A stretch of 36,183 bases of DNA from Candidatus Omnitrophota bacterium. GTDB lineage: Bacteria > Omnitrophota > Gorgyraeia > Gygaellales > Profunditerraquicolaceae. The DNA lies in contig WOZK01000034.1 of NCBI GenBank assembly GCA_011620275.1, positions 1-36,183 on the forward strand. The letters run 5' to 3'. Position numbers and translations under genes: made by a program. Below the pieces are notes generated by a model. That model worked only from the letters and a program-made list of their open reading frames with translations. It searched no databases and had not been told where the DNA came from. The stretch's first letter is position 1; every line of letters starts with the position of its first letter. Shown piece by piece: positions 33,271 through 36,065 of the stretch.

Positions 33271-33290
33271 GCTTCGACTTCGCTCAGGAT
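33271..33290 (-). repeat. short CTTCGAC..GCTCAGGAT motif
   Basis: GCTTCGACTTCGCTCAGGAT is, on the other strand, ATCCTGAGC plus GAAGTCGAAGC. Both halves reappear in the forward direction at 33563-33571 (ATCCTGAGC) and 33625-33632 (GTCGAAGG) just before the GIY-YIG gene. A shorter relative, GCTTCGACAATCTCAGCAT followed by six T, occurs at 33351-33369 and could act as a weak terminator after gltX. Confidence 0.5.
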
Positions 33291-33394
33291 TTTCTATATA
33301 AAAGTTTTATAAGTAAGTGTTCCAATTGGTTTATTTATGAGCTTATGCTTCGACAATCTCAGCATTTTTTCTACTAAAAGATTTATATGATTAT

Positions 33395-33466
33395 TGCCCT
33401 GTCGTCTAATCGGTAGGACTTCAGATTCTGGATCTGACTATCATGGTTCGAGTCCATGCGGGGCAG
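33395..33466 (+). tRNA. tRNA-Gln (CTG), CCA not encoded
   Basis: The acceptor begins with T1-A72 as usual for tRNA-Gln (TGCCCTG with CGGGGCA). The anticodon stem TCAGA/TCTGA encloses TTCTGGA, giving CTG, the T-arm CATGG-TTCGAGT-CCATG is perfect, and the discriminator is G73. No CCA is encoded. Its last six bases, GGGCAG, are the start of a 110-bp repeat. Confidence 0.95.
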
Positions 33467-33570
33467 TGATTCGACGCGCCCTCATTTCATTCGGGCTTGC
33501 TCATCATCTGTGGGCGAGTTACTTTGAGATGAGGGCGTTGTTATTTAGGGGTGTGCAGAATCATCCTGAG
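33461..33570 (+). repeat. 110-bp hairpin repeat, copy 1 (overlaps tRNA-Gln 3' end)
   Basis: Repeated at 35956-36065 with two differences. It contains a 12-pair stem (CGCCCTCATTTC with GAGATGAGGGCG, one G-T pair) enclosing a loop of about 37 bases. It starts within the tRNA-Gln acceptor and ends at ATCCTGAG. Confidence 0.93.
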
Positions 33571-33639
33571 CAAGTGGTGGTGCGCAAGAGAGTCCGCAAG
33601 GGCGAACGCGTAGAACCGGAGTGCGTCGAAGGACAAAAA

Positions 33640-33918
33640 ATGTGGTTTGTTTATATGTTATTGTGCAAGGATGAAGCAATTTATACCGGTATCACCGATG
33701 ATATAGATAGACGCGTAAAAGAACATATTCAAGGGAAAGGCGGGCATTTTACGGGGTATAATCGTCCAAAAGAGATCCTATATAAAGAAACATTTAAGAA
33801 TCGCTTTGAAGCGGAACAACGTGAACGACAAATTAAGGGATGGACTCGCGCAAAGAAGAAAGCCTTGATAATGGGGAATAAAAGCGAGCTGATAAGTTTG
33901 AGTAAGTCTCGAGATTAG
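33640..33918 (+). CDS. GIY-YIG endonuclease domain protein (YhbQ/UPF0213 type)
   Basis: From ATG 33640 the protein has 92 residues: WFVYMLLC (the GIY position, here VYM), IYTGITDDIDRRVKEH (the YIG position plus catalytic Arg24/25 and His29), then EAEQRERQIKGW with the metal-binding Glu. This is a single-domain GIY-YIG nuclease of the small YhbQ-like group. The Shine-Dalgarno AAGGA (33629-33633) lies inside the motif GTCGAAGGA. The frame open upstream to 33394 runs through tRNA-Gln and the 110-bp repeat and is not coding. The cellular role of the group is poorly known. Confidence 0.85.
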   Translation: MWFVYMLLCKDEAIYTGITDDIDRRVKEHIQGKGGHFTGYNRPKEILYKETFKNRFEAEQRERQIKGWTRAKKKALIMGNKSELISLSKSRD

Positions 33919-34387: not shown

Positions 34388-34622
34388 ATGAGCGTAAATA
34401 TATTGTGAGGCGCATAAATGATGTCTGTTTTCATAATAAGCCAGTTGCAGATTTCGTCCAATGGGGGCAGTTTTCTTCCGCCAGCGGCGGAAGAAAACGG
34501 AGCAATTGAGCATTCGACATTTGAACAATGGAGGAGAGCGCGCTTGCGATCTAATCTCGATTTTCTACTCGTTAAGACATTTCTCGCGCAAGGATTTTCG
34601 TCTTTTATTTTAGCCAATCTCC
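34388..34622 (+). other. non-coding stretch with a 13-bp perfect inverted repeat
   Basis: GTTTTCTTCCGCC (34470-34482) and GGCGGAAGAAAAC (34486-34498) form a perfect hairpin with a three-base loop AGC and A/T-rich ends, able to terminate in either direction. A 92-codon frame crosses this region but includes the hairpin and the next promoter, so I do not call a gene. Confidence 0.6.
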
Positions 34623-34688: not shown

Positions 34689-35318
34689 ATGGTTAAAATA
34701 TTTCAAATTGAAGAAATCGTTGATTCTCTTTCCAAGGTGGCTATCTTGCGGCTTCTTACTGTCCGAAAGAACTTTAAAGCCACAGGCCGCCAGATTGCTA
34801 AGCTGGTAGGTTATTCGGCCCCTTCCACACATGATTCACTAAAGAGCCTGCATGAACGCAACATCTTAAAATTAGATATTATTGGTAAACAGCATATTTA
34901 TACTTTAAATGAAGACGATCGAATTGTTCAAAAAATTATTCGTCCGATGTTTGCCGCAGAAAGTAACATTAAAAATGAAATCCGCGACTTTCTTTTAATA
35001 GAACTCAAACGGACTAAGAGTAAAACAAGAATTGTATCTTTAATCCTTTATGGAAGCGTGCAAACCGAGACAGCTAAAAAGGGAAGCGATATTGATGTTG
35101 CGGTGGTAGTGTCTAGGGCCGCGGATATTCAACCAGTTAAAAATGTTTTCCTTTCCGAAATAGCCTCCAGATTTAAGGCATATTTTGGCGTTCAGATAGA
35201 TCCATATATAAAGTCCGCTGCAGAATTTAAGGAACGGCTTAAAAAGAACCAGCCGCCAGTTTCAACCTTAATGAAATCTTATTCCGTTTTATATGGGAAA
35301 GAACCATTGGAGATTTAA
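34689..35318 (+). CDS. MntA-like minimal nucleotidyltransferase with N-terminal winged helix (antitoxin)
   Basis: The 209-residue protein has two parts. Residues about 8-85 look like a winged helix-turn-helix (FKATGRQIAKLVGYSAPSTHDSLKSL as recognition region, gapped). Residues about 100-205 carry a minimal nucleotidyltransferase fold with the exact GS-x10-DxD motif: Gly122-Ser123 and Asp134/Asp136. MntA-type antitoxins AMPylate their HEPN toxin. Fusion to a DNA-binding domain allows the antitoxin to repress its own operon, and the palindrome just upstream fits this. The HEPN partner follows 2 bases later. Known MntA proteins are often smaller and lack the wHTH. Confidence 0.85.
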   Translation: MVKIFQIEEIVDSLSKVAILRLLTVRKNFKATGRQIAKLVGYSAPSTHDSLKSLHERNILKLDIIGKQHIYTLNEDDRIVQKIIRPMFAAESNIKNEIRDFLLIELKRTKSKTRIVSLILYGSVQTETAKKGSDIDVAVVVSRAADIQPVKNVFLSEIASRFKAYFGVQIDPYIKSAAEFKERLKKNQPPVSTLMKSYSVLYGKEPLEI

Positions 35319-35320
35319 AT

Positions 35321-35731
35321 ATGACTGCTCGCGAGATAAAAATAAGGCAAGAGGGTAGGGCGGCAGCTTCCGAATATTTAAAGAAGGCCACTGATAATTA
35401 TGAGCAGATGTTAGCCGCATTTAATGCTTCAAACTGGAATGCGGCAGCAACCTTGGCTATTCAATGTGCGATTTCATCCGCAGATGCGATTTGCGTCTAT
35501 GGAAAGGGCGTGCGTTCGATTTCGCAAGACCACTTTGATGTTTGCGACCTGGTAGCTGGATTGCCGCTTGACGGCGCCGAGGAGAAATCAAGGCAGTTAC
35601 GCAAAATCATCGCCCGCAAAAATCTCGTCCAATACGAATGCCGTAGTATCAATAAATCAGATGCGGATGAGATGGTCAAAGTTACCACAAGAATTTATCA
35701 ATGGGTAAGGGAGATAATCGGGAAGATTTGA
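35321..35731 (+). CDS. HEPN-domain protein, HepT-like toxin partner
   Basis: The 136-residue all-helical protein (EYLKKATDNYEQMLAAFNASNWNAA.., then AIQCAISSADAICVY) fits the HEPN fold and its pairing with the upstream nucleotidyltransferase, 2 bases away. HepT RNases use an Arg-x4-6-His motif followed by Tyr. Here the matching segment reads RKNLVQYE (Arg99 to Glu106) with Gln104 where His is expected and Tyr105 kept. The catalytic histidine may therefore be missing, or the family may be a non-nuclease variant. The Tyr could still be an AMPylation target. Confidence 0.82.
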   Translation: MTAREIKIRQEGRAAASEYLKKATDNYEQMLAAFNASNWNAAATLAIQCAISSADAICVYGKGVRSISQDHFDVCDLVAGLPLDGAEEKSRQLRKIIARKNLVQYECRSINKSDADEMVKVTTRIYQWVREIIGKI

Positions 35732-35955: not shown

Positions 35956-36065
35956 GGGCAGTGATTCGACGCGCCCTCATTTCATTCGGGCTTGCTCATC
36001 ATCTGTGGGCGAGTTACTTTGAGATGAGGGCGTTGTTATTTAGGGGTGCGCAGAATCATCCCGAG
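35956..36065 (+). repeat. 110-bp hairpin repeat, copy 2
   Basis: Two differences from 33461-33570 in 110 bases. It starts with the same GGGCAG that ends tRNA-Gln. Upstream bases resemble the tRNA T-arm only weakly (14 of 22), and a GATGTTG/CAACATC inverted repeat precedes it. After it, to 36183, I see only AT-rich sequence without a gene. Confidence 0.93.

Follow-up and report, generated by a model that had tools for sequence, protein, structure and literature searches.

Class-specific hairpin repeats beside stand-alone GIY-YIG nuclease genes: a REP-like organisation

A GIY-YIG gene among hairpin repeats

The window, that is, the whole stretch of 36,183 nucleotides that was analysed, carries a gene for a stand-alone GIY-YIG nuclease between a tRNA-Gln gene and a 137-aa open reading frame (Table 1). 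The encoded protein is intact and consists of one domain with the catalytic residues present, and Y5, G17, R25, H29 and E62 are invariant among 35 relatives. Its relatives of known structure are the UPF0213 proteins 1zg2 and 1ywl and, weakly, SLX1. Only the GIY-YIG domain (PF01541) was found in the enzyme, which is not an IS200/IS605-like Y1 HUH transposase.

Table 1. Features at the GIY-YIG locus of the window
Feature	Position	Strand	Basis or remark
Third repeat element, ATCCTGAGCGAAGTCGAAGC	33271..33290	-	Motif scan; stretch absent in the sister species
Second repeat element, ATGCTGAGATTGTCGAAGCAT, perfect 5-bp outer stem	33345..33365	-	Motif scan; overlooked in the original prediction
tRNA-Gln(CTG), immediately upstream	33394..33467	+	
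110-bp direct repeat, copy 1: covers the tRNA 3' end and a strong hairpin (33475-33545), last part is half-site ATCCTGAG	33461..33570	+	
Gene-proximal repeat element, ATCCTGAGC - 53-nt insert - GTCGAAGGA	33563..33633	+	Motif scan
AAGGA inside the repeat, possible Shine-Dalgarno; spacing to the ATG (33640) 6 nt	33629..33633	+	
Gene for the stand-alone GIY-YIG nuclease (class A, UPF0213/Slx1-like, 92 aa)	33640..33918	+	PF01541 E=2.9e-17
110-bp direct repeat, copy 2, 98% identical, ends ATCATCCCGAG	35956..36065	+	

Within 370 bp of the gene lie three hairpin copies that share a CTGAG...TCGAAG core and have a covarying outer stem. The original prediction had placed ATCCTGAGC and GTCGAAGG in forward and inverted orientation around the gene; the positions are correct, but the second half of the inverted element ends in C rather than G. 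There are only two exact copies of ATCCTGAGC in the window, at 33563-33571 (+) and 33282-33290 (-), and GTCGAAGG (33625-33632, +) recurs there as four further single copies that are unpaired with the first half. In the sister species, one diverged hairpin, ATGCTTCGGCGCGCTCGGCAT, stands at the position of the second element. The 71-nt gene-proximal element of the window folds no better than its shuffles.

A genome-wide count, which the original prediction had proposed as a check, returned 9 copies of CTGAGCN{2,30}GTCGAAG against 3 of a reversed control in the genome to which the window belongs (1.476 Mb at 92.5% completeness). The motif exceeds its control, yet this genome is not repeat-rich and has only about a dozen repeats; the nine copies include relatives of one compound element, two of which share the same core. 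The repeat triplet at one gene is nonetheless far from chance, with a Poisson probability of about 1e-7 if some 12 hairpins genome-wide are assumed. Compound palindromes of some 60 bp, similar to one another and built around CCTGAGCAGTTC(G/A)ACAGGCTCA...GTCGAAGGAT, occur at four dispersed places in the genome, two on one contig and one on each of two others.

The two 110-bp direct repeats begin at the tRNA-Gln 3' end and flank 2.4 kb, the second lying near the window end with the variant terminus that had been read from the sequence beforehand. The 71-nt hairpin in this repeat (33475-33545) is very stable (z = -4.7), and an Rfam search of the window locus and its sister locus returned the tRNA only. 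Further along, positions 34689-35731 encode a nucleotidyltransferase (with an N-terminal region) and then a HEPN protein. The two resemble a toxin-antitoxin pair of the MntA/HepT type, the match to the MntA model falling below the cut-off. A perfect 13-bp hairpin, GTTTTCTTCCGCC-AGC-GGCGGAAGAAAAC (34470-34498), lies in the gap that follows the 137-aa reading frame.

Repeats and class A genes across phyla

Relatives of the gene were found by a protein search blind to DNA motifs, which gave 68 from many phyla. GIY-YIG genes of all kinds were then taken from 40 class A genomes and sorted by simple signatures after the catalytic Glu (class A, ERQIKGW-type; class B, KWKRxWK), with an extra class B sample from 200 Pseudomonadota genomes. 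Hairpins of class A were scanned as the CTGAG...TCGAAG core with a stem of at least 3 bp, and CGTC REPs as a GTC-tagged stem with a CC tail; such strict definitions miss variants and leave about one third of class A and one half of class B genes without a strict match.

A class A hairpin lies within 250 bp of the gene in 65 of 101 relatives from many phyla, so that the suggested occurrence of such repeats beside small GIY-YIG genes in many genomes is borne out more widely than claimed. Hairpin density reaches 3-5.5 per kb in the first 100 bp to either side of the genes, compared to 0.02-0.11 per kb beyond 500 bp; in the set of 68 relatives the values were about 3 and 0.00-0.10 per kb. Equal motif density near GIY-YIG genes and elsewhere had been named as the outcome contrary to the prediction, and the densities are not equal (about 3-5 per kb close to the genes against 0.02-0.11 per kb beyond 500 bp). 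UvrC loci show 0.05 per kb. In 49 class A genomes the strict pattern CTGAGCN{2,3}GTCGAAG has 1112 copies, against 12 for the reversed control; near class A genes it is 213-fold denser than the genome average, and still 26-fold denser when all copies are taken to be intergenic and the intergenic share is assumed to be 12%. When elements were chosen by core alone, the first three outer stem positions paired in 90, 84 and 64% of cases, compared to 63, 39 and 37% after shuffling. As several pair types occur and complementarity exceeds the shuffled level, the class A elements are hairpins under pairing constraint.

The original prediction also held that the window gene takes its ribosome site from the repeat. 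The AAGGA and its spacing are as described at this gene, but the arrangement is not a general property: TCGAAGG[AG] precedes the start by 3-12 nt in no more than 13 of the 91 class A genes compared, which rules out ribosome-site borrowing as a rule. A repeat-derived ribosome site at the window gene, not conserved among its relatives, is plausible from the sequence.

These data bear on a regulatory explanation, in which the upstream hairpin would act within the 5'UTR, masking or providing the ribosome site, and the protein would bind or cleave it in autoregulation, other copies being chance or by-products. It would agree with the AAGGA in the window repeat and with the nearest upstream element, which at 47 of 56 class A loci has the + orientation seen in the window. 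However, hairpins are also dense just downstream of the gene, they are dispersed genome-wide, and few stand at ribosome-site distance, which makes this explanation very unlikely.

Each class of nuclease has its own repeat

When 8-mers were counted in the flanks without a preset motif, the top words differed by GIY-YIG class. Those of class A were CCTTCGAC and ATCCTGAG, and those of class B were GGAATCCA and GTCATTCC, the words of the published CGTC/dRS3 REP. A third pairing, with words of the CTGTCATTGCGAGG/GAAGCAATC type, was found for class B2 (n=7); in this small sample, five genes carry the repeat family GTCATTGCGAGG...GAAGCAATC.

The hairpin of the gene's own class occurs within 250 bp at 65 of 101 class A and 28 of 52 class B genes, compared to a class B hairpin at 1 of 101 class A genes and a class A hairpin at 1 of 52 class B genes (Fisher 9e-22, on counts not corrected for phylogeny). 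At class B loci with two flanking hairpins, both share the same stem in 10 of 12 cases, where the permutation mean was 2.65 and none of 5000 permutations was as high. At two loci of Neisseria gonorrhoeae, the class B gene is surrounded, over 2.6 kb, by dRS3 arrays of 11 and 16 copies.

The repeats could instead be moved in trans by a RAYT/IS200-type or other transposase, with the GIY-YIG gene as a hitchhiker. The architecture matches that of REP/RAYT systems, and transposases occur in many bacterial genomes. Yet such movement does not account for the pairing of every GIY-YIG branch with a repeat of its own, and this explanation is considered very unlikely. CGTC REPs, moreover, are not associated with transposase genes (PMC3733652).

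Presence and absence at matching sites

Whole units of gene and repeats are present or absent at corresponding sites in related replicons. In the gap between fnrL and a response regulator gene on Sphingobium plasmids, three sequenced copies have CGTCACCCCGGGCTTGACCCGGGGTCCCGC-gene-GCGGGACCCCGGGTCAAGCCCGGGGTGACG, one of them with a shortened right end, and among other plasmids one has only CGTCACCCCGGGTCAAGCCCGGGGTGACG, one a diverged solo hairpin and two no such repeat. What separates the occupied from the solo form is a segment with an 8-bp duplication, ACCCCGGG, at its two ends. This cleanest occupied/solo site belongs to class B, not class A, and the direction of change, gain or loss, is unpolarised. 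For class A, two Methylobacterium plasmids have the unit at different sites: that of Methylobacterium bullatum carries the gene after polA, and on that of Methylobacterium aquaticum the polA site is without gene and repeat, its class A gene being located elsewhere. Both genes are flanked on either side by class A repeats, which in M. aquaticum have matched inner sequence. In the sister species of the window genome, gltX and tRNA-Gln are conserved and the repeat and GIY-YIG gene are missing (about 105 bp compared to 1137 bp). Plasmid searches for an empty site found none for class A in Sphingomonas parapaucimobilis and none for class B in Rhizobium CIAT894.

At one locus shared by two Bacteroidota (L023 and L027), the repeat-gene unit has a dS of 0.13, compared to 0.87-1.80 in its neighbours, including values of 1.80 and 0.94, and L023 has extra repeat units on both sides. 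In three Chloroflexi, it is at the edge of the repeat that homologous sequence upstream of the gene sets in. No drop in dS was found in the Chloroflexi and Sphingomonas comparisons, and on three Sphingomonas chromosomes the repeats are vertically conserved with no sign of mobility.

Direct repeats of at least 14 bp occur in the 300-bp flanks of 58 of 197 GIY-YIG genes and in 1 of 197 control windows, and several of them are partial tRNA genes, as at L186 (42 bp), L145 (35 bp) and L055 (26 bp). A tRNA gene lies within 300 bp of 31 of 101 class A genes compared to 0 of 52 class B genes. Nine loci, and one more in the sister species, have the GIY-YIG gene next to or inside a tRNA gene with a partial tRNA copy of 17-60 bp on the other side, which looks as if the 3' (or 5') part of the tRNA were a target duplication. 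At L055 and L067 a class A repeat is immediately adjacent to the end of the tRNA that is duplicated.

Such observations can be set against a housekeeping role, in which a Slx1-like resolvase of the host would trim REP cruciforms or hairpins and adjacency would reflect sites kept intact or tolerated, with no spreading. The nearest characterised relatives by sequence, UPF0213 proteins and the structure-specific SLX1 nucleases, would suit that role, and RAYT genes, too, are as a rule domesticated single-copy genes. The presence or absence of the whole unit between close relatives, the partial tRNA duplications and the low-dS island point to movement instead, and housekeeping alone is considered unlikely.

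Co-occurrence at the genome level

The possibility that genomes with the motif lack the protein, which would count against a partnership, had two different outcomes. Across 200 Pseudomonadota genomes the two are associated: the class A motif occurs in 9 of 12 genomes with a class A gene compared to 13 of 188 without (p=8e-8), at least 5 copies are found in 6 of 12 compared to 2 of 188, and none of the 34 genomes with class B only has at least 5 copies. In the window's phylum there is no association, the motif being present in 152 of 341 genomes with any GIY-YIG match and in 16 of 43 without (p=0.42). Some genomes of this phylum have 16-17 repeat copies with no detected gene; taken over all genomes surveyed, such cases with no class A gene detected span 16-39 copies. 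Incompleteness of metagenome-assembled genomes and REPs that persist once the gene is lost could account for some of this null result, which remains evidence against strict dependence.

The same null result, together with the tRNA neighbours of class A genes, would fit a mere passenger association, in which repeats and GIY-YIG genes both gather in tolerant intergenic places, such as regions downstream of tRNA genes, and have no functional link. It is largely contradicted by class specificity, with own and foreign motifs distributed so unequally, and it also conflicts with a density 26-fold above the intergenic upper bound and with the stem shared by both sides of class B genes in 10 of 12 cases. 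We consider it quite improbable.

A proposed two-part system

The preferred reading, to which we give a probability of about 0.62, is a two-part system of hairpin-forming, REP-like repeats and a stand-alone Slx1-like GIY-YIG nuclease, the gene being flanked by repeats of its own subfamily and the spread being driven by repair. Flanking, subfamily specificity, repeat dispersal, covarying stems and presence or absence of the unit at matching sites are established by the comparisons above. As for mechanism, the nuclease would recognise its cognate hairpin, in cruciform or single-stranded form, and could cut in or beside it. Through repair of the break, other hairpins or tRNA genes might then become targets that receive a copied or moved repeat, alone or together with the gene. 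Spread would be homing-like, and the repeats would be both target and non-autonomous passengers of the nuclease. A GIY-YIG enzyme is not expected to perform strand transfer as RAYT transposases do.

A broader proposal is more tentative and falls somewhat short of an even chance. Stand-alone GIY-YIG genes as a whole could be a superfamily of minimal single-gene mobile elements. Each branch would target, and be bounded by, its own hairpin (CTGAG/TCGAAG, CGTC/dRS3 or GTCATTGCGAGG) or tRNA genes; the spread would come from repair induced by the nuclease and not from strand transfer, and the superfamily would supply the missing enzyme of CGTC REPs.

Comparison with known systems

The suggestion that a small GIY-YIG nuclease has its own repeat family in the manner of REP/RAYT systems is supported as far as organisation is concerned, by cross-phylum clustering and subfamily-specific pairing. 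In both cases the repeats are short, palindromic and mostly intergenic, the enzyme gene is flanked by them and usually present in one or few copies, and the repeat variant matches the enzyme clade. Dispersed non-autonomous copies are likewise common to both, albeit weakly so in the window's own genome. The enzyme, however, is a GIY-YIG protein (PF01541), in contrast to the Y1 HUH tyrosine transposase of RAYT, and the class A core CTGAG...TCGAAG has no conserved GTAG end among the elements listed. With an unrelated enzyme and no GTAG tag, the GIY-YIG/repeat system does not belong to REP/RAYT.

Alphaproteobacterial class A loci contain CCTGAGG...CCTCGAAGG palindromes, which may resemble the rhizobial RIME1 mosaic elements. 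We know of no enzyme assigned to RIME elements.

The GIY-YIG homing endonucleases I-TevI and I-BmoI share the catalytic domain and the proposed spread by target cleavage and repair. The window enzyme differs from them in being a single domain on the 90-aa scale, with no intron and no extra DNA-binding module, and in being flanked by hairpins.

Slx1-like bacterial GIY-YIG proteins (UPF0213), the family of the window gene, have been described (Dunin-Horkawicz 2006, PMC1564403), with no mention of flanking palindromes in that paper. The GIY-YIG/TrmH-type fusion reported there was also seen here in sphingomonads, where GIY-YIG is fused to an RNA methyltransferase through a linker of repeat-like peptide (RLRSGRTEE, AERSRST). 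Chloroflexi GIY-YIG reading frames have repeat-like C-terminal tails too (SSFDRLRTSG). No earlier report of GIY-YIG genes with REP-like repeats, or of the repeat sequence as such, was found in an open-licence literature library, and the partnership of a nuclease with mobile genome repeats looks previously undescribed.

CGTC-tagged REPs, to which Neisseria dRS3 belongs, are described as repeats that 'apparently lack a dedicated transposase' (Di Nocera 2013, PMC3733652). Exactly these repeats flank class B genes, including dRS3 in N. gonorrhoeae, whereas the class A repeat of the window is without the CGTC tag. The way in which dRS3 and other CGTC REPs spread is explicitly an open question (PMC3733652), for which the class-specific GIY-YIG partner is a named candidate enzyme. 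If the proposal is true, two or more unrelated nucleases accompanied the origin of REP-type repeats, and the UPF0213 proteins, widespread but uncharacterised, would gain a role.
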